Of a stretch of 64,000 nucleotides of DNA, positions 18,683 through 30,689 are shown piece by piece. The position numbers and the translations under genes were made by a program. The notes beneath the pieces were generated by a model. It did no database searches and was not told the origin of the DNA. It saw only the letters and a program-made list of their open reading frames with translations. Numbering within the stretch: position 1 is the first letter of the stretch; each line of letters opens with the position of its first letter. The DNA lies in contig JAFIHF010000048.1 of the NCBI GenBank assembly GCA_017848855.1, positions 1-64,000 on the forward strand, given 5' to 3'. This DNA comes from Rhodanobacter denitrificans (lineage in GTDB: Bacteria; Pseudomonadota; Gammaproteobacteria; Xanthomonadales; Rhodanobacteraceae).

Positions 18683-19539
18683 TCCCCGTCACCCTCTTCC
18701 CAGCGCAGCACAGTATACGGTTGCCCGGCCATTCCCCCGGCGCGGAAGCGTACCGTGGCACGAATCACGGCATGCGTGCCATCGGCCAGCACCGCCTCCG
18801 CGCGGATGCTGTGCGTGACGCCGCCGCCGATCGGCGGCGCGGCCATGCGGCTGTTCCGCTCGCGCGCAGCGCGCAGCGCGGCCAGCTGTTCCGGATCGAG
18901 CCCGGGGATCGCCGCCAGCGCCAGCGGCGGCGCGGTGTTCGGGTCGGGCATGGCCTGCCCGGACCAGAGCGTGATCGCCGGCTCCAGCTTGCGGTACAGC
19001 GCCGGCGTCATGCCCAGCACCAGCTGCAGCTCCTGCAGGCTGGCGAACGGGCCGTGGCGCGGGCCGTAGTCGCGCCCGGCCGCCGCGTACTCGGCGCGCC
19101 CGCGCTCGGCCTGGCCCGGCTCGGTGACGAAACTGCGCCAGTCCACCACGCGGGTGGCGAGCTTGCCGGCGGCCGCCGCATCCAGCCCGGCGGCGCGGAA
19201 CAGCGCCTGCAGCACCTCGGGCGAGGCGGCGTTGAGATCCACCTTGCCGCCTTCGTCGGTCACCGTGACGCTGACCGTGGCGCCGTCGAAGTCGAACGGA
19301 TAGCTGCGGCCGTCGCCGACCCAGCGCCGCTGGGCGACCGGATCCTGCATCGCATAGGTCGCCCGCATCACGCCCGCTTCCGCGGCGTAATGGGCGCGGG
19401 CCTCGGCGAACTGGTAGCGCGTCTGCAACGCCGCCGTGCGCGCCAGCACCGCGTAGCCGCCGAGCAAAACCGCCAGCAGGGTGCAGGCCCACAGCACCAG
19501 CAGCAGGGCCACGCCGCGCTGTCGCGCGCGCCGCTTCAT
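18679..19539 (-). CDS. gspK: Type II secretion minor pseudopilin GspK
   Basis: 286 residues. A short class III leader of 9 residues (MKRRARQRG) is followed by VALLLVLWACTLLAVLLGGY, the prepilin transmembrane helix. GspK lacks the Glu+5 common to other pseudopilins, as is normal for this subunit. The rest shows the large alpha-domain typical of GspK (VDLNAASPEVLQALFRAAGL; PNTAPPLALAAIPGLDPEQLAAL). It caps the pseudopilus tip with GspI and GspJ. The start overlaps the gspJ stop (ATGA). It is the only pseudopilin here whose leader has not been extended by a repeat. Confidence 0.9.
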   Translation of the reverse strand: MKRRARQRGVALLLVLWACTLLAVLLGGYAVLARTAALQTRYQFAEARAHYAAEAGVMRATYAMQDPVAQRRWVGDGRSYPFDFDGATVSVTVTDEGGKVDLNAASPEVLQALFRAAGLDAAAAGKLATRVVDWRSFVTEPGQAERGRAEYAAAGRDYGPRHGPFASLQELQLVLGMTPALYRKLEPAITLWSGQAMPDPNTAPPLALAAIPGLDPEQLAALRAARERNSRMAAPPIGGGVTHSIRAEAVLADGTHAVIRATVRFRAGGMAGQPYTVLRWEEGDGE

Positions 19540-21056
19540 CGCCCGCCCCCGAGCGGCAGCCTGCTGCTGGGCAGCAGGCCGGCCCGACCGGCCGTGGCGG
19601 AGGCGTCGATCCGCAGCGGCACGTCCAGCTCGGGCCAGCCGTCACCGCCCTGCGGCTGCAGCTTGACGCGCACCAGCTGCGGCAGGCGGCTGCCGTCGGC
19701 CCAGTCGCCGCTCCACGGCAGCACGCGGTTCTGCGCATCGCGGCCGAGATAGCCGAAGCTGCCGTCCTTGATGTGATCGAGCAGCACCTGCGGCTCGCCC
19801 AGCGGCTTCGGCGGCTGGCCGTCCGGCGGCAGCAGCGCCAGTTGCAGCTCCAGCCGCTGGCCATCCTTGCCGTCGTCGACCAGCTTCAGCACCTGCAGCT
19901 GCGGGCCCAGCTTGCCGAGGTAACCCGGCAGCGGGGCCGCGTAGCGCATCTCGTGCTCGCTGCCGGAGAAATAGATCGGCTGGCCGCGATCGTCGCGCCC
20001 GATCGGCTGCGCCAGCGCCTGCGCCAGCTCGCGGCGCAGGAAACGCTGCGCCGAACCGATCTGGTCCATCCGCGTGATCGCCACGCTGCCCGAACGCGCA
20101 CCGTGGATCGCGCTGCGCACGCCGCCGTAGACGCCCACCAGAAGAAGGGCCAGCAGGGCCAGGGCGCCCAGCACTTCGAGGAGGGTGAAGCCGGCGGCGC
20201 GGCTTGAGCGCCCTCGTTGGCGGCGGACTGCACCTGCCCCCTCTCCCCCAACGGCTCTGCCGTTGGGGGAGAGGGTTGGGGTGAGGGGGGCTCTTGCTTC
20301 TGCGTTATCGCAAGTTTCAAAGCGGTTTCGTGCGCCTGCCGGCGCCCGAGCTACTTCTCTTTTGCTTGTCCAAAGGAGAAGTAGCCAAGAGAAAACGACA
20401 CCCCGCGGCGGCGCTTGCCGGGCGTCCTGCCCGGTCGAAAAGGCGAGTCCATCCATGGCCTCGCCCGCTGCGCGGCCTGATCGTCCACGGCTCACCACCG
20501 CCGAGGGGGCCCCGAGTAAAGCGGCGCGCTCCTGCGCGCAGAAGCCAAAGCCCCCCTCACCCCGACCCTCTCCCCCAAGCGGAGCTTGGAGGAGAGGGAG
20601 TTGGTGCGGCGCGCGCTTCGACTTTGCTCGGCTTTGCTCTTGGCTTTGCTCTTGGCTTTGCTCTTGGCTTTGCTCTTGGCTTTGCTCTTGGCTTTGCTCT
20701 GGCTGTCGCTTCTGCGCGCTGGGAGCGCGCTGCTCTTCCGGGGCCCCTATGGCGCGGCGGGCGGGTGGAGGAAAGTCCGCAGGATGGCCCGCACGGATGC
20801 GGGCCAGTTTTTCGCCGGCACACGGAGGTGCCGTCGAAAAACCCCGTAACCCGCCCGCGCACCCGCAGGGCAGGATGCCCGGAGGGCGCGCCATCGGGGT
20901 GCCGTTTCTCTTTGGTTCCTTTCTCTTTGGGCAAGCAAAGAGAAAGGAACTCGGCCACCGGCAGGTGGACGAAACCGCTTTGTTCCTTGCGGCAGCCGCG
21001 CGAAAAACCACCGCCTTCAGATTCCCGCCTCCGCGGGAATGACGACGGCGCTTCAT
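19536..21056 (-). CDS. gspJ: Minor pseudopilin GspJ with a 289-residue repeat-encoded leader
   Basis: The mature pseudopilin starts at FTLLEVLGALALLAL (F encoded at 20189-20187). It runs 217 residues with normal GspJ features (FLRRELAQALAQPIGRDDRG, MRYAAPLPGYLG). No ATG, GTG or TTG lies in frame within about 90 codons upstream of the cleavage site. The only start in the expected operon position is the ATG at 21056, which overlaps the gspI stop as ATGA. From there the frame stays open through about 820 bases of composite repeat, giving a 506-residue product. Repeat-encoded parts include (QEQS)6 and hairpin-derived stretches. An in-frame ATG within the repeat (leader of ~95 residues) is an alternative start. 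Confidence 0.7.
   Translation of the reverse strand: MKRRRHSRGGGNLKAVVFRAAAARNKAVSSTCRWPSSFLFACPKRKEPKRNGTPMARPPGILPCGCAGGLRGFSTAPPCAGEKLARIRAGHPADFPPPARRAIGAPEEQRAPSAQKRQPEQSQEQSQEQSQEQSQEQSQEQSRAKSKRAPHQLPLLQAPLGGEGRGEGGFGFCAQERAALLGAPSAVVSRGRSGRAAGEAMDGLAFSTGQDARQAPPRGVVFSWLLLLWTSKREVARAPAGARNRFETCDNAEARAPLTPTLSPNGRAVGGEGAGAVRRQRGRSSRAAGFTLLEVLGALALLALLLVGVYGGVRSAIHGARSGSVAITRMDQIGSAQRFLRRELAQALAQPIGRDDRGQPIYFSGSEHEMRYAAPLPGYLGKLGPQLQVLKLVDDGKDGQRLELQLALLPPDGQPPKPLGEPQVLLDHIKDGSFGYLGRDAQNRVLPWSGDWADGSRLPQLVRVKLQPQGGDGWPELDVPLRIDASATAGRAGLLPSSRLPLGGGR
20231..21047. repeat. Composite repeat block 2 inserted in the gspJ leader
   Basis: Reverse-complement relative of the block at 1-766. It contains a 17-bp perfect hairpin (20239-20255 with 20259-20275, loop TCT), the AAAGAGAAAG-type hairpins at 20350-20385 and 20915-20950, two inverted copies of the ~270-base unit, and a 12-base tandem array at 20630-20701. 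Near the gspI end is a small ATTCCCGC...GCGGGAAT hairpin (~21021-21041). The whole block sits between the gspJ start codon and the prepilin cleavage site without closing the frame. Confidence 0.75.
20630..20701. repeat. 12-base tandem repeat, six units
   Basis: Six head-to-tail copies of GGCTTTGCTCTT form the centre of composite block 2; the last copy has one change. At the equivalent centre of block 1 (about 310-330) only short CTTGCTCTTGCTC runs are seen. Being a multiple of three, unit gain or loss would keep the gspJ frame. Confidence 0.85.
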
Positions 21057-21664
21057 GGCGCACCACCCGCCGCCGCCACCGGCGTCCCCAACCTCAGAGT
21101 GCTGAAATGCGCCACCTGCGGCCGCGCCGCACTCCCCCAGTTCACCGTGAGGTCGAGCCGATAGAGTTGCAGCATCGCGCCATCCACCCGCGGGCCGGGC
21201 GGATTCCACGGCGTCACGTCGAGCTGCCAGCGATAGGCGTGGTCGAAGCTGCCGCTGCGCCGCCCGGGTTGCAGCGGCTCGGTGACGTAGGCGCTGTCCA
21301 GCAGGCTGCGCGCCCACAGCGCCACTTCGTCGTGCGCGGCTGCATTGCGCGACAGCGCGATCGCGCCGCCGGCGACCTTCATCAGCGCGGCGAAGGCGAT
21401 CGCCAGCAGCAGCATCGCGGCGATGACTTCGAGCAGGGAAAAGCCTTTTTGGCGGGACTCGGGACGCGACAGCCGGGACTCGGGACTCGGGACTCCATGA
21501 AGCCGGGACTCGGGACTCGGGACTCGGGACTCGGCAGAGCGCGCCGAGACAGGCTTTGGCCTTGCGCGCTGGCCGATACGCCCGAGCGCCGAGCTGTGGC
21601 TTTGCCCGAGTCCCGAGTCCCGAGTCCCGAGTCCCGGCTGTTGCTTCCCGAGTCCCGGCTTCAT
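21053..21664 (-). CDS. gspI: Minor pseudopilin GspI with a repeat-extended leader
   Basis: 203 residues. The ATG at 21664 overlaps the gspH stop (ATGA). The first ~74 residues are encoded by an expanded GGGACTC-type repeat element (21453-21659). The prepilin motif then appears as QKG/FSLLEVIAAMLLLAIAFAAL, with F at residue 75 and Glu+5 present. The mature part is ~129 residues, normal for GspI, with LARS-like ALWARSLLDSAYV and a C-terminal beta region. The stop overlaps the gspJ ATG. No other start codon lies between the ATG at 21664 and the cleavage site. GspI nucleates the pseudopilus tip complex. Confidence 0.8.
   Translation of the reverse strand: MKPGLGKQQPGLGTRDSGLGQSHSSALGRIGQRARPKPVSARSAESRVPSPESRLHGVPSPESRLSRPESRQKGFSLLEVIAAMLLLAIAFAALMKVAGGAIALSRNAAAHDEVALWARSLLDSAYVTEPLQPGRRSGSFDHAYRWQLDVTPWNPPGPRVDGAMLQLYRLDLTVNWGSAARPQVAHFSTLRLGTPVAAAGGAP
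21453..21659. repeat. GGGACTC-arm inverted-repeat element, copy D (in gspI leader)
   Basis: The element has outer arms of tandem GGGACTC on one side and GAGTCCC on the other, around a ~85-base core that includes GGCAGAGCGC and CGAGCGCCGAGC. This copy has extra arm units and a small duplication (207 bases against about 135 in copies A and B). Confidence 0.85.
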
Positions 21665-22266
21665 GGCTTCACCTTGTCCACCACCGCGACCTGCCCGGTG
21701 AGCCACGACACGTTGATGCGCCACTGGCGGCGGCCGCTGGCGAGGATGATGTGGCCGCCGGTGGAGCTGCCGTCGGGGAAGAAGCGGATGCGCCCGGTGT
21801 ACGGGTTCGGGCGATCCTCCAGCGCGCTGGTGATCGAAAGCTTCATGCCCTTGGGCAGGCGCACGTGCTGCCGTTTCGCGTCGCTGTAGGTGTCGTCGCG
21901 CACGTCCACGTCGAAATGCTGTTCCTTGCCCTGCACGATCGCCTGCGCGCGGGTGGCGCGCAGCGCCGCGGCGAGCTCGCCGCTGGCCGCGTTGACGCGC
22001 GCGCTGGCCAGGCCCTGCGTCACCGACACCGCCACCGCCGCCGCGGCGATGCCGATCAAGAGGATCACCACCAGCATTTCGAGCAGGGTGAAGCCGCTTT
22101 GTTTGCGGGACTCGGGACTCGGGACTCGGGACTCGGCAGAGCGGTGCGGGGCGTGCTTTGGCCTTGCGCGCTGGCCGATGCGCCCGAGCGCCGAGCTTTG
22201 GCCTTTCCCGAGTCCCGAGTCCCGAGTCCCGAGTCCCGGCTGTCGCGTCCCGAGTCCCGGCTTCAT
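21661..22266 (-). CDS. gspH: Minor pseudopilin GspH with a repeat-extended leader
   Basis: 201 residues. The ATG at 22266 overlaps the gspG stop (ATGA). Residues 1-~54 come from the repeat at 22106-22260; the leader then ends RKQSG and the mature protein begins FTLLEMLVVILLIGIAAAAVAV (F at residue 59, Glu+5 present). The mature part (~143 residues) shows the GspH/FimT-like pattern with LRATRAQAIVQGKEQHF and IRFFPDGSSTGGHIIL. No in-frame ATG is visible between the start and the cleavage site. GspH is the subunit joining the tip to the GspG shaft. Confidence 0.82.
   Translation of the reverse strand: MKPGLGTRQPGLGTRDSGLGKGQSSALGRIGQRARPKHAPHRSAESRVPSPESRKQSGFTLLEMLVVILLIGIAAAAVAVSVTQGLASARVNAASGELAAALRATRAQAIVQGKEQHFDVDVRDDTYSDAKRQHVRLPKGMKLSITSALEDRPNPYTGRIRFFPDGSSTGGHIILASGRRQWRINVSWLTGQVAVVDKVKP
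22106..22260. repeat. GGGACTC-arm inverted-repeat element, copy C (in gspH leader)
   Basis: Same architecture as the other copies: four arm units, a core with GGCAGAGCGG and CGAGCGCCGAGC, then the complementary arm. An additional short CCCGAGTCCCGG duplication lies at 22247-22260, immediately before the gspH start codon. Confidence 0.85.
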
Positions 22267-22808
22267 TGCCAGTTGCCCACGTCCTTGTCGTAGCCGTCGC
22301 CGCCGGGCTTGCCGTCGCGGCCGTAGAAGATCAGGTCGAAGTTGCCGTGGTCGCCGGGCGCCTTGTAGCCGAAGGCGTGGCCCCACGGATCCATGAGTTC
22401 GGACTCCTTCGCGTACGGGCCCTGCCAGTTCGGCGCGTTCGCCGGCTTGGTCACCAGGTCCTGCAGCTGCTGCGGCGGGGCGCCGTTGTCCAGCGCGTAG
22501 TTCTCGATCTTCTGGCTGAGCGTGGTGAGCTGGGCCTTGCCCGCGCCGTATTTGCCCTTGTCCATGTTCTTGCCGACCTGGGTCACCACCACCGCGCCGA
22601 CGATGCCGATCAGCACGATCACCGCGAGCATTTCGAGCAGGGTGAAGCCGCTTTGTTTGCGGGACTCGGGACTCGGGACTCGGGACTCGGCAGAGCGCAT
22701 CGAGGCGAGCTTTGGCACCACGCGCTGACCGATACGCCCGAGCGCCGAGCTTTGGTCTTTCCCGAGTCCCGAGTCCCGAGTCCCGAGTCCCGCACAATAC
22801 GTATTCAT
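22263..22808 (-). CDS. gspG: Major pseudopilin GspG with a repeat-extended leader
   Basis: 181 residues from the ATG at 22808 (MNTYC), chosen because GAGAGGA lies 6-7 bases upstream. Two earlier in-frame ATGs (22814, 22823) sit on or before that site. The leader is 54 residues, mostly encoded by the repeat at 22660-22792, and ends RKQSG. The mature protein starts FTLLEMLAVIVLIGIVGAVV (F at 55, Glu+5). The mature part (~127 residues) has GspG hallmarks: YALDNGAPP, LMDPWGHAFGYKAPGDHG and the C-terminal calcium-site region DLIFYGRDGKPGGDGYDKD. An internal ATG at 22700, created by the repeat, would give an 18-residue leader. It forms the pseudopilus shaft. Confidence 0.88.
   Translation of the reverse strand: MNTYCAGLGTRDSGLGKDQSSALGRIGQRVVPKLASMRSAESRVPSPESRKQSGFTLLEMLAVIVLIGIVGAVVVTQVGKNMDKGKYGAGKAQLTTLSQKIENYALDNGAPPQQLQDLVTKPANAPNWQGPYAKESELMDPWGHAFGYKAPGDHGNFDLIFYGRDGKPGGDGYDKDVGNWQ
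22660..22792. repeat. GGGACTC-arm inverted-repeat element, copy B (in gspG leader)
   Basis: About 133 bases. Its core differs by a few bases from the other copies and contains CAT at 22698-22700, which supplies an in-frame ATG on the minus strand. The arms are three to four GGGACTC units and their complements. Confidence 0.85.
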
Positions 22809-24037: not shown

Positions 24038-24055
24038 TTACGGGACTCGATGGAG

Positions 24056-24190
24056 CCGGGACTCGGGACTCGGGACTCGGGACTCGGCAGAGCGCGTCGA
24101 GGCGGGCTCTGGCCATGCGCGCTGACCGATGCGTCCGAGCGCCGAGCTGTGGCCTTTCCCGAGTCCCGAGTCCCGAGTCCCGAGTCCCGG
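24056..24190. repeat. GGGACTC-arm inverted-repeat element, copy A (gspE-gspF gap)
   Basis: About 135 bases with four GGGACTC units at one end and the complementary units at the other; an isolated extra unit lies at 24041-24049. It occupies most of the gspE-gspF gap and does not enter a coding region. The transcript could form a stem of roughly 25 bp. Confidence 0.85.
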
Positions 24191-24209
24191 ATTCACGGAG
24201 CCTCGAATC

Positions 24210-26135: not shown

Positions 26136-29100
26136 TTACCAGCCGATGCCCAGACCCACGCCGCCGGAGGCCTCGTTGCCGCTCACCGCGGCGCCCACGG
26201 TGAGGTTGGCATTGCGCGACAGCGAATGCGAGTAGCCCACCGACAGCGCGGCCTGGCCGCGGTAGCCGCCCACGCCCACGCCCACGCGGTTCGGCGTGTC
26301 GATGCCCTGCGTGCTGAACGCCATCTGCGACATCGCCGCGCCCATCGCGCCTACCCGCGTCATGCGCTGGTTCACCGCGCGGAACTGGTCGTTGACCTCG
26401 CCGCGCAGGGAGTTCAGGTCGGCGTTGCTCGCCAGCCCGGCCACCTTCTGGTCGGTATAGGTCTTGGCCGAGTTCAGCGTGGTCTGGTTGCCGGCGTCGG
26501 CATAGGCCTTCGCGTCGATCAGGGCCTGCTGCACCTGCCCGGTGTTCGCCGCGTCGGTGGCCTGCGTGCCCGCGGCCACGTTGGCGATCTGCCGCTCGCT
26601 GCCCGCCGCACCCACCGAGACGGTGTTGGCGCGATCGGCCACCGAGCCCGCGCCCAGCGCCACCGCGTTCTGGGCGGACACCGTCGCGCCCTGGCCCAGG
26701 GCGGTGCCCGAGGCCGCGTTCACCGTGGCGCTTTCGCCCACCGCCACCGCGTTGGTGGCGGCCGCGGCGATCGTGGTGTTGGCGCCCACCGCGGTGGAGC
26801 CGTCAGCGTTCACCTTCGCGTTGCCGCCGATCGCGGTGTCGTTCGGGCCGGCGGCGTAGCTGTCGCCGCCGACCGCAGTGCCGTGGTCGCCGCCGGCGTT
26901 GGCGTTCGAACCGACCGCCACGCCCTTGGAGCCGGCGGCCACCGCGGCCGTGTCGCTGCCGTCGCCGGCGCCATCCGCCGCCAGGTACGGGCTGCCCGAC
27001 GCGTTCCGCTCCAGCATGCCCACGCGGCCGTCGAGCGCGGCGATGTTGCCGAACGCCTGCGTCAACGCGCCGTCCAGCGCGCCCAGCGCGTCGCCCACGC
27101 TGTGGTAGCTGCCGCCCTGCAGGCTGTAGAGCGGCCCCGCGAAGCCGCCGGCCGCCATCGCCGCGCCGCCGCCCAGCGCCTGCGCCAGCGCGTCGCCCAG
27201 CGCGAACAGCTGGCCGCCGTTGACCGCGTCCATGCTGTCGGCGCCGAGCGCGCCGGCCTTGACGTTGGCCAGCGTGGTGCCGCCGTTGCCGGCCAGCGTG
27301 AGCGTCGCCTTGTCGGCGTCGTCGTAGCTCACCATGTTGGCGATGCTGCCGCCGATGCCGCCGATCGCATCCTGCAGCTGCTTCAGGTTCACCGCATCGG
27401 TGCCCGCCGTGCCGGCCGCCACGTTGGTGATCTGCCGCTCGCTGCCGGCGCGGCCCACCGAGACCGTGTTGGCGCGGTCGGCCACCGACTGCGCGCCCAG
27501 CGCCACGGCATTGGTCGCGCTGGCCTTCACCGTGGCACCGGAGCCCAGCGCCGTACCCTTCACCGCATCGGCCTCGGCCAGCCAGCCCAGCGCCGTGGCC
27601 TGGTTCGCCGCCGCCAAGCTGCCGGCACCCACCGCGACGGCGCCAAGCCCGCTCGCCTCGGTGCCGAACAGGCCGTAGACGCTGCCGCCGATCGCCACGC
27701 TCTGGCTGGCGCTGGCCGTGCTGCCTTCGCCCACCGCCACGCTGCTCTCGCCCCCCGCCGTGGCACCCACACCGCCGGCAAAGGCGTAATCGCCGGCAGC
27801 GGTGGCGCTGTAGCCCACGCCGGTGGCAAGCAGGCCGTCGACCTGCGCATAGCTGCCCAGCGCGGTGGCGCCGTCGGCCTTGGCGGCGGCGCGGAAGCCT
27901 GCCGCCAGGGCCTGCGTGCCGCCCGCCGCGGACTCGGCGCCGAGCGCCGTGCCGTAGGTTCCGGCGACCTGTGCCGCATGGCCGTAGGCCGATGCGCCGT
28001 CCGCGTCGGCCAGGCTTTCCGCGCCGGTGGCCACGCCGTTTTCGCCATTGGCCTGCGCGTTGGCGCCGGCAGCGACGCTGTTCTCGCCCTGCGCCATGCT
28101 GCCGTAGCCCACCGCCACGCTGCCGGCGCCGAGCGCGCCGGCGCCGGCGCCCAGCGCCGTGGCCTGGTCCTGCCACGCGAAGCTGCCCGCACCGATCGCG
28201 GTGCTGTTCGCGCCCGCCGCATCGGCCTTGTAGCCGAACGCCGCGCTCTCGTCGCCGTTCGCGAGGCTGCTCGCGCCCGCCGCCACCGCGTGCGTGCCGA
28301 GCGCCAACGCGTCTTCGCTGCCGTCGGTGGCGCCGTCGGCCGCGAACAGGTGCGAGGCCGTCGCCGACGCATTCGCCACCGCGTCGAGCTGGGCCTTGTT
28401 CACCGCGTCCGTCGCCTCCGTGCCGGCGGCCACGTTGGCGATCTGGCGGGTCAAGCCGTCCTTCGCGCTGCCGACCGAGATGGTGTTGACGCGGTCCGCC
28501 CAGCTGTCGGCGCCCAGTGCCACGCTGTGCTCGGCGAGGGCGGTGCTGGTATCGCCGATGGCGACGCTGCCGAGGCCGGCAGCCCAGCTGTTCGTGCCCA
28601 GCGCGGTGGCGTTGTCCCCCTTCGCGTAGGCGAAGTAGCCCAGTGCGGTGCTGGCTACGCCGCCGGCCTCGCTGATCGCGCCCACGGCAGTGGCGTTGTC
28701 GGCCAGCGCATGCGCGCCCGCGCCCAGCGCCGCGGCGTTCTCGCCCTTGGCCAGGGTGTCGATGTAGATGCCCAGGCCCGGGATCAGGTCGGCCGAGCCG
28801 CCCAGCGCCACGCTGCCGTTGCCGATCGCGGCGCTCTGCGAACCGACCGAGGTGGCGAACGTGCCGCTGGCGGTGGCGATGCCGCCCACCGCCGTGGCCT
28901 GCTGTCCGAGCGCGCTGGCGCCCACGCCGAGCGCGGTGCCGGCCAGGCCGGTGGCTTCCGCACTGGCGCCCACCGCGGTGGCGCCGATGCCGGTGCCGGT
29001 GGCGGCGGCGGTGATCGGATTGCCATCGGCTCCCTGCAGCAGCGGATTGCCGTCCTCGTCCACGGCCACGCCGCCGATCGCCACGCTGCTGGCGCCGCCG

Positions 29101-30689
29101 GCTTGCGCGTTGATGCCGCTGGCCACGCTGTTCGCGCCCTGCGCCATGCTGCCGTAGCCCACCGCCACGCTGCCCGCGCCGAGCGCGCCGGCGCCGGCGC
29201 CCAGCGCCGTGGCTTGGTCCTGCCACGCGAAGCTGCCCGCACCGAGCGCGGTGCTGTTCGCGCCCTCCGCATCGGCCTTGTAGCCGAACGCCGCGCTCTC
29301 GTCGCCGTTCGCGAAGCTGCTCGCGCCTGCCGCCACCGCGTGCGTGCCGAGCGCCAGCGCGTCTTCGCTGCCGTCGGTGGCGCCGTCGGCCTGGAAGAAG
29401 CGTGTGGCGCCGGCCACCGCATCGTCCAACTGGCCCACGTTCACCGCATCGGTGGCTGCGCTGCCCGCGGCCACGTTCACGATCTGGCGCTCCTTTCCTT
29501 CCGCACCCACCGAGACGGTGTTCGCGCGATCCGCCACCGAGTTCGCGCCCAGCGCCACGCTGTTATCGGCGGCGGCATGCGCCATGAAGCCCAGCGTGCT
29601 GCTGTTCTCGCCCTCCGCGTAGCTGCCGCTGCCCACCGCGGTGCCGCCATCGAGGTCGGCCGTGGCCAGTGCGCCCAGTGCGGTCGACTGCAGGCCGTCG
29701 GCCTGCGCCATGGTGCCGATGGCCGTCGCACCCAGGCCGGAAGCGGTCGCGCCGTTGCCGAAGGCGCTGGCCGCGACGCCGGCGCTGGTGGTGCCCTGGT
29801 AGAGGATGCCCGGGATGCCGTAGAGGATGTCGCCCACGTCGGCGCGGCCGCCCACCGCCACGCTGTAGTCGCCGCTGGCCGCGGCCTTGTTGCCGATGGC
29901 AACGGCCTCCTGCCCGCTGGCCTTGCTGGACACGCCAACCGCCACGCTGGCGGCGCTGAGCGCATTCGCGCCATAGCCCAGGGCCGTGCTGAGGCGGCCG
30001 CCCGCCTGTGCGTAACTGCCCGTGGCGGTGGCCCCATCGGCCGAAGCCTTGGCGCGGAAGCCCGATGCCAGCGCCTGGGTTCCCGCGGCCTCCGACTCGG
30101 CGCCCAACGCCGTGCCGTACGCGCCAGTGGCCTGCGCGGCGCTGCCGTAGGCCGACGCACCTTCCTGGTCGGCCAGGCTGTTCGCGCCCGTCGCCACCGC
30201 ATTCGCACCATTCGCCTGCGCGGCGTTGCCCTGGGCCACGCTGTTCGCGCCCTGCGCCACGCTGCCGTAGCCCACCGCGAGGCTGCCCTCGCCCAGCGCG
30301 TTCGCGCCCGATCCCAAGGCCGTCGCCTGGGCCGCCAGTGCGAGGCTGCCCGCGCCGACCGCGATGCTGTTCGCGCCTTCCGCATCGGCGCCGAAGCCGA
30401 ACGCCACGCTCTCGTCGCCCATCGCCATCGCGCTCGCGCCCACGGCCACCGCGTGCGTGCCGTTCGCCAGCGCGTCTTCGCTGCCGTCGGTGGCGCCGTT
30501 GGCCTCGATGAAGCGCGTGTCGCCGGCCATCGCCGGCGCGGCGCCCAGCGCCAGGGCGAGACCGGCCGCCGCCAGCGCGGCGCGCAGGCGCTTCGCGCCG
30601 CCGCCCTTGCCGCTGGCACGCGCGTGTTCGGACGCGACCACCAGCGTGCCGAGCGATTTGTTCCAGACTTTGCTGTAGATCCTGTTCAT
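26136..30689 (-). CDS. Trimeric autotransporter adhesin (YadA/Hia type)
   Basis: 1517 residues. It begins with the extended signal peptide region MNRIYSKVWNKSLGTLVVASE and a hydrophobic core (~35-55). The passenger holds three long YadA-head blocks (~57-395, ~430-750, ~780-1090) made of 14-residue AxAxGxxSxAxG-type repeats. Each block opens with GATDGSEDAL and closes with a neck motif (SVADRANTVSVG, RQI.NVAAGT..TDAVN). A fourth, shorter head and neck lie at ~1230-1390, then a stalk and the YadA anchor (~1430-1517) ending VGLGIGW. It is exported by Sec and self-inserts as an outer-membrane trimer for adhesion or biofilm formation. Own terminator at 26073-26102. Confidence 0.93.
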   Translation of the reverse strand: MNRIYSKVWNKSLGTLVVASEHARASGKGGGAKRLRAALAAAGLALALGAAPAMAGDTRFIEANGATDGSEDALANGTHAVAVGASAMAMGDESVAFGFGADAEGANSIAVGAGSLALAAQATALGSGANALGEGSLAVGYGSVAQGANSVAQGNAAQANGANAVATGANSLADQEGASAYGSAAQATGAYGTALGAESEAAGTQALASGFRAKASADGATATGSYAQAGGRLSTALGYGANALSAASVAVGVSSKASGQEAVAIGNKAAASGDYSVAVGGRADVGDILYGIPGILYQGTTSAGVAASAFGNGATASGLGATAIGTMAQADGLQSTALGALATADLDGGTAVGSGSYAEGENSSTLGFMAHAAADNSVALGANSVADRANTVSVGAEGKERQIVNVAAGSAATDAVNVGQLDDAVAGATRFFQADGATDGSEDALALGTHAVAAGASSFANGDESAAFGYKADAEGANSTALGAGSFAWQDQATALGAGAGALGAGSVAVGYGSMAQGANSVASGINAQAGGASSVAIGGVAVDEDGNPLLQGADGNPITAAATGTGIGATAVGASAEATGLAGTALGVGASALGQQATAVGGIATASGTFATSVGSQSAAIGNGSVALGGSADLIPGLGIYIDTLAKGENAAALGAGAHALADNATAVGAISEAGGVASTALGYFAYAKGDNATALGTNSWAAGLGSVAIGDTSTALAEHSVALGADSWADRVNTISVGSAKDGLTRQIANVAAGTEATDAVNKAQLDAVANASATASHLFAADGATDGSEDALALGTHAVAAGASSLANGDESAAFGYKADAAGANSTAIGAGSFAWQDQATALGAGAGALGAGSVAVGYGSMAQGENSVAAGANAQANGENGVATGAESLADADGASAYGHAAQVAGTYGTALGAESAAGGTQALAAGFRAAAKADGATALGSYAQVDGLLATGVGYSATAAGDYAFAGGVGATAGGESSVAVGEGSTASASQSVAIGGSVYGLFGTEASGLGAVAVGAGSLAAANQATALGWLAEADAVKGTALGSGATVKASATNAVALGAQSVADRANTVSVGRAGSERQITNVAAGTAGTDAVNLKQLQDAIGGIGGSIANMVSYDDADKATLTLAGNGGTTLANVKAGALGADSMDAVNGGQLFALGDALAQALGGGAAMAAGGFAGPLYSLQGGSYHSVGDALGALDGALTQAFGNIAALDGRVGMLERNASGSPYLAADGAGDGSDTAAVAAGSKGVAVGSNANAGGDHGTAVGGDSYAAGPNDTAIGGNAKVNADGSTAVGANTTIAAAATNAVAVGESATVNAASGTALGQGATVSAQNAVALGAGSVADRANTVSVGAAGSERQIANVAAGTQATDAANTGQVQQALIDAKAYADAGNQTTLNSAKTYTDQKVAGLASNADLNSLRGEVNDQFRAVNQRMTRVGAMGAAMSQMAFSTQGIDTPNRVGVGVGGYRGQAALSVGYSHSLSRNANLTVGAAVSGNEASGGVGLGIGW

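Follow-up and report, generated by a model that had tools for sequence, protein, structure and literature searches.

The window analysed here, a 64,000-nucleotide stretch of a Rhodanobacter denitrificans assembly (GCA_017848855.1, contig JAFIHF010000048.1, positions 1 to 64,000), carries on its minus strand a type II secretion (T2SS) operon in which four pseudopilin genes, gspG, gspH, gspI, and gspJ, have long leaders ahead of the prepilin cleavage site. We consider it probable that gspG, gspH, and gspI have taken up selfish palindromic repeats in frame, and gspJ a repeat of another family, and that translation begins at the operon start and yields long leaders that are later removed. The genes concerned are as follows.

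22263–22808, minus strand: gspG, leader of 54 residues, or 59 counted from the ATG that overlaps the gspF stop
21661–22266, minus strand: gspH, leader of 58 residues, with no further ATG, GTG, or TTG in the leader
21053–21664, minus strand: gspI, leader of 74 residues, with no further ATG, GTG, or TTG in the leader
19536–21056, minus strand: gspJ, leader of 289 residues
18679–19539, minus strand: gspK, ordinary leader of 9 residues, used as the comparison gene

A preliminary description of this DNA, made from its letters, had set long leaders in the first four genes against a short one in gspK, and the lengths above confirm it. The pseudopilin domain begins at residue 52–53 in GspG, 56–58 in GspH, 72 in GspI, 284–288 in GspJ, and 7 in GspK (NCBIfam). 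GspG scores above its NCBIfam cut-off, and H, I, and J match XpsH, XpsI, and PRK08808, respectively, with scores under the curated cut-offs. The prepilin motif (a small residue, F, and E at +5) is present as a G preceding FTLLE or FSLLE, and we assigned GspG to GspJ to the class III signal peptide T2SS pseudopilins on the family match of the mature part together with this motif.

The inserts of gspG, gspH, and gspI are near-palindromes in which a GGGACTC array of 31 nt, a centre of 69–70 nt, and a GAGTCCC array of 32–33 nt follow one another. A further copy lies near gspF, which gives four copies of the element in the operon.

22660–22792: palindromic GGGACTC/GAGTCCC element in the gspG leader, made up of a 31 nt arm, a 69 nt centre, and a 33 nt arm, with 91% identity to the copy in gspH
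22106–22238: palindromic element in the gspH leader, plus a short extra array at 22247–22259
21504–21636: palindromic element in the gspI leader, 92% identical to the gspH copy, with extra arrays at 21453–21465, 21474–21495, and 21646–21657
24057–24189: fourth copy, in the interval that separates the gspE stop from the gspF start, with 92% identity to the copy in gspH

Over 133 nt, the three other gsp copies are thus 91–92% identical to the gspH copy, and the next full-length copy in the genome reaches 81%, a difference that points to local spread within this genome. Exact matches to three GGGACTC units number 207 genome-wide, while the pattern read backwards has none. Because the unit is seven bases long, which is not a multiple of three, each arm gives the same stop-free heptapeptide whichever of the three frames is used; 21 bases, the length of three units, correspond to seven codons, reading GTRDSGL on one strand and ESRVPSP on the other. 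Judged from the sequence, such arrays would be able to enter coding DNA without adding a stop codon, with only the total length and the centre having to fit. We also looked for a Y1-type (RAYT) transposase adjoining the element, as in repetitive extragenic palindromic (REP)-like mobility. This candidate was rejected, as none was found beside the repeat: there were two Y1_Tnp matches, one with a stop, and neither ~3 kb locus has two tandem GGGACTC units.

The GGGACTC element was also rejected as the gspJ insert, since gspJ carries a different and larger repeat.

20235–21014: composite dispersed repeat of ~0.8 kb forming the bulk of the gspJ leader, with 199 matches in the genome and long copies on contigs C1, C28, and C56

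The earlier proposal that the leaders consist of dispersed repeats therefore stands for all four genes, while one element shared by all four does not. Within the gspJ leader, at 20615–20710, a 12-base unit (CTTGGCTTTGCT) occurs in tandem and is read as repeated QSQE. Copies of the ~0.8 kb repeat were also observed at the first bases of several contigs (e.g., C1:5–676, C10:1–243, C14:1–244), so the repeat may break assembly.

The element is not a T2SS speciality, a point absent from the preliminary description. In the genome of the window, 31 stretches with 48 array clusters were evaluated (the element copy at C50:159–195 was left out), and ten of the clusters are in frame and open inside genes. 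By coding signal, the other 38 comprise 21 between same-strand genes, 14 with signal on one side, one with signal on neither side, one between opposite strands, and one at a contig edge. The ten in-frame insertions are spread over eight genes.

purM: one in-frame insertion, seen as an extra segment around SSRVPSPESRVPA when the protein is aligned to solved structures
uvrD: two insertions, after residues equivalent to E. coli UvrD 242 and 473
nadE: one in-frame insertion, from a homology search
polA: insertion directly before the Klenow part, from a homology search
valS: in-frame insertion
sucB: in-frame insertion
acetylornithine-deacetylase gene: in-frame insertion
icmF: two in-frame insertions

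The two uvrD sites were read in eight sister genomes (L207–L214), with four order-level relatives left out. Site 1 is empty in seven of these and holds a different insert in the eighth (G005). At site 2, four genomes have a different repeat (SPSPLRG...), G005 has another insert, and three are short. Unrelated repeats thus use the same permissive sites, and the repeats carried by a loop of UvrD are in frame and differ among the sister genomes.

To place the leaders among relatives, we used a GspF search that yielded 80 named loci from Rhodanobacter, Dyella, Frateuria, and others, of which 78 gave at least one leader row and 76 an H, I, or J row. No pilin motif was seen at loci L130 and L138, and the rows left out were four gspJ (L109, L120, L142, and L146, with a spacer above 870 nt and gspI unrecognised) and the masked gspH of L102. 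Of the 76 genomes, 44 have a leader that reaches 30 residues or more in at least one of gspH, gspI, and gspJ (one of the three genes in 22 genomes, two in 16, and three in 6). By gene, and with the window included, leaders of at least 30 residues were counted in 44/66 gspH, 19/63 gspI, and 12/67 gspJ. All 75 of these long leaders are net positive (+1 to +26, median +7), and their highest 15-residue mean hydropathy is 1.71. The insert types vary among genomes, from GIRDSGFG...SRIPNPESR and GNGERGTG...SPFPVPRSP to repeats that are not heptamers at all, and exact GGGACTC triplets were found in the window's own genome and in 6 of the 60 relatives searched. Relatives free of elements have leaders like MKRQRG, in gspI (L086) and gspJ (L083, L087). 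Across the 80 loci, 44 seven-base arrays of at least 21 nt fall in 26,286 bp of leader spans, versus 4 in the other 954,403 bp. Three of those four lie just upstream of gspF (L141, L144, and L159), the position that the fourth copy in the window also has, and the remaining one follows directly on gspF, close to the end of a contig (L138).

This concentration of arrays at the gene starts of the gsp operon would also be expected if hairpins or G-quadruplexes (G4) just behind the start codons tuned the translation ratios of the pseudopilin subunits, so that the elements were kept for this effect. Long stems are predicted right after the gspG and gspH starts (−113 kcal/mol, z −9.7, and −114 kcal/mol, z −6.5, respectively), and related heptamers are described in the passages of PMC4692102 as forming G4 in vitro and sitting near the ends of open reading frames. 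We nevertheless find such tuning unlikely. A strong fold is expected of any long palindrome, and the predicted stems do not show regulation. In addition, 32 of the 76 relatives have all their H, I, and J leaders below 30 residues, the insert families vary by genome and some are without heptamers, and the element sits mid-gene and in frame in polA, uvrD, and nadE, where tuning at a start codon cannot apply.

The reading of the inserts as translated leaders depends on where translation begins. In gspH, gspI, and gspJ, an in-frame ATG overlaps the previous stop at an offset of −4. A −4 overlap is likewise present in gspG, where it gives the leader of 59 residues and is followed by further ATGs at 56 and 54. 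In gspH and gspI, the leader contains no ATG, GTG, or TTG after the operon start, so translation from a standard start has to include the long leader in these two genes. The window alone offers four inserts that are all in frame, which would happen by chance about 1 time in 81, a weak result, and it is the relatives that carry the case. Counting the window, the −4 start keeps the frame in 62 of 63 gspI rows, the exception being L137 with a start at +1, and in all 67 gspJ rows. When only spacers of at least 75 nt are considered, it is in frame in 20/20 gspI (17 distinct lengths) and 12/12 gspJ (11 distinct lengths). It is the sole standard start in nine gspH, seven gspI, and one gspJ long leaders, the gspH and gspI of the window included. 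From these sequences, it is very probable that translation of the long leaders begins at the operon start. In-frame insertion, as first described, is borne out both by the genes of the window and by this frame retention. Frameshifted leaders, which the same description had named as something to look for in relatives, were absent from the long gspI and gspJ spacers.

If translation instead began within or behind the repeats, normal short leaders would result and the long frames would be untranslated accidents. Codons that could serve this purpose exist in gspG (an ATG 18 residues, and GTGs 24 and 25 residues, ahead of the mature start) and in gspJ (an ATG at 89, GTGs at 102 and 103), and many relatives have internal starts in some of their leaders. 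As an account of the whole set we consider this very improbable, given that gspH and gspI have no standard start after that of the operon, and that internal starts would not require the −4 frame to be retained throughout the long gspI and gspJ spacers. The suggestion that the repeats create internal starts accordingly fails for gspH and gspI, while for gspG and gspJ such initiation is possible.

How translated inserts of this kind might persist can be outlined. The leader of a prepilin is described as cytoplasmic and then removed (PMC10191384, in the part concerned), so an insert that stays on the cytoplasmic side and is cut off by the prepilin peptidase should leave the mature pseudopilin unchanged. 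On this view the leader stretch looks like a landing site at which repeat DNA is tolerated. Purifying selection would keep the frame, and recombination or local transposition may spread the elements from one leader to its neighbours in a genome. Leaders that share a genome are more alike than shuffled labels would give, with a mean score of 0.424 versus 0.242 and none of 2000 shuffles as high (61 leaders, 27 genomes, the gspJ leader of the window excluded). Local spread would produce such likeness, and so would an active family peculiar to each genome.

A wider version of this picture is that selfish palindromes compatible with coding accumulate time and again in the T2SS pseudopilin leaders of Rhodanobacteraceae, which would act as a sink for them. 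Several unrelated families, with arms readable in any frame, would repeatedly invade these leaders and other permissive sites, and would pass between the leaders of a genome, perhaps through homology in the shared coding of the prepilin motif. We put this forward tentatively, giving it slightly less than even weight. If it is true, the secretion machine routinely makes and discards leaders of 50 to nearly 300 residues.

Several results weigh against the reading as translated, discarded inserts. A long gspK leader was found in just 1 of 73 cases (two of the 73 were read by eye, the motif being unmatched), despite a similar leader and an overlapping start. Arrays were seen in 0 of 18 type IV pilin-type leaders from three repeat-rich relatives (10 further non-gsp matches fell outside the set), and in 0 of 5 from the genome of the window. 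Tolerance alone cannot account for the sparing of gspK and the type IV pilins. The −4 start of gspH is in frame in 31 of 53 long spacers, the rest having some in-frame start between −10 and +30 nt, which makes it a weaker test, and the gspG frame phases are spread about evenly, with no bias. As the relatives are not independent, the frame counts given above carry no probability. Finally, the prepilin peptidase (PF01478) was not found in the window's own assembly, which is 92.7% complete and in 73 contigs. Insertion as a general trait of every prepilin leader was rejected for the type IV pilin-type genes examined. One idea concerning the sparing of gspK is that gspG to gspJ share FTLLE/FSLLE coding and gspK does not, so recombination between leaders could carry inserts from one to another of G to J but not to K. 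Separately, a pseudopilin-like gene outside the main gsp operon of another genome (L241, G016:C1:142637) carries an array, with the leader GNGERGTG...SPFPVPCS, and by its sequence looks like a second T2SS pseudopilin.

The missing peptidase likely reflects an assembly gap, as the enzyme is present in all seven same-genus genomes of at least 95% completeness, while it was not found in two of 87%; the genome of the window has nine prepilin-motif matches despite the absence of PF01478. That the operon is decaying or misassembled, with the long leaders as a sign of lost function, could draw on the fragmented assembly and this undetected enzyme, yet it is barely credible when the mature parts fit their families, no frame is interrupted, and other assemblies, among them Rhodanobacter sp. 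DHB23 (L084), Dyella tabacisoli (L099), and Rhodanobacter fulvus (L114), show long leaders of this kind with other repeats.

For selfish repeats inserted in frame, the nearest precedent is that of the Rickettsia palindromic elements (RPEs). In passages of PMC10969869, PMC3733652, and PMC2229807 that cite Ogata and co-workers, these are ~105–150 bp palindromes in many copies, some of them intergenic and others placed in frame within conserved genes that are unrelated to each other. The element described here is a 133 bp palindrome with arms of 31–33 nt and a long predicted stem-loop, and its in-frame copies include the ten insertions in eight genes and the three pseudopilin leaders. It may therefore be likened to an RPE in how it works, by description and not by sequence, and we do not claim membership of the RPE family. 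Unlike the RPEs, it belongs to a GC-rich gammaproteobacterium of a soil group, its arms are built from a 7-base tandem unit, it clusters in T2SS pseudopilin leaders, and several unrelated repeat families occur at the same sites. In these passages, in-frame palindromic elements are described mainly for Rickettsia, and their occurrence in polA, uvrD, nadE, and pseudopilins here extends them to a GC-rich gammaproteobacterium.

The tandem unit itself has a relative in the GGGNATC heptamers of Xanthomonas and Nostoc (Rehm et al. 2015, PMC4692102). In the portion of that paper concerned, these are G-rich 7-base repeats that are dispersed, mostly in four units and often in convergent inverted pairs, as here. 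They are mainly intergenic, with 7–11% at least partly overlapping an open reading frame, and xpsF is marked as a repeat-associated gene. Their definition asks for tandem (GGGANTN)n of at least 14 bp, usually four units, and for at least one GGGAATC unit per array. The arrays of 31–33 nt fit the first pattern, while the unit is GGGACTC, and no GGGAATC or GATTCCC occurs in 21440–22800 or 24051–24195. The terms "in frame" and "leader" are absent from the text of PMC4692102, and its three matches to "pilin" are all in the reference list. Enterobacterial and neisserial miniature inverted-repeat transposable elements (MITEs) also include small open-frame repeats fused in frame to genes (reviewed in PMC2229807), and the passages on them describe neither heptamer palindromes nor a link to prepilin leaders. 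Leaders beyond the usual few residues are reported for type IVb pilins and for the type IVa pilins of Streptococcus sanguinis (PMC10191384), where, in the part concerned, the leader is not described as repeat DNA; here it varies with the repeat among close relatives. Searches of the open literature, which leave subscription papers largely outside their coverage, returned no title on repeats in prepilin leaders.

The different repeats found at the same sites in sister species form a natural series on how far a prepilin leader can be stretched with respect to targeting and cleavage, and on the tolerance of proteins to insertion. Gene starts in these operons are easily mis-annotated.

Elsewhere in the window, at 26136–30689 on the minus strand, a repeat-rich open frame of 1517 residues looks like a trimeric autotransporter adhesin.

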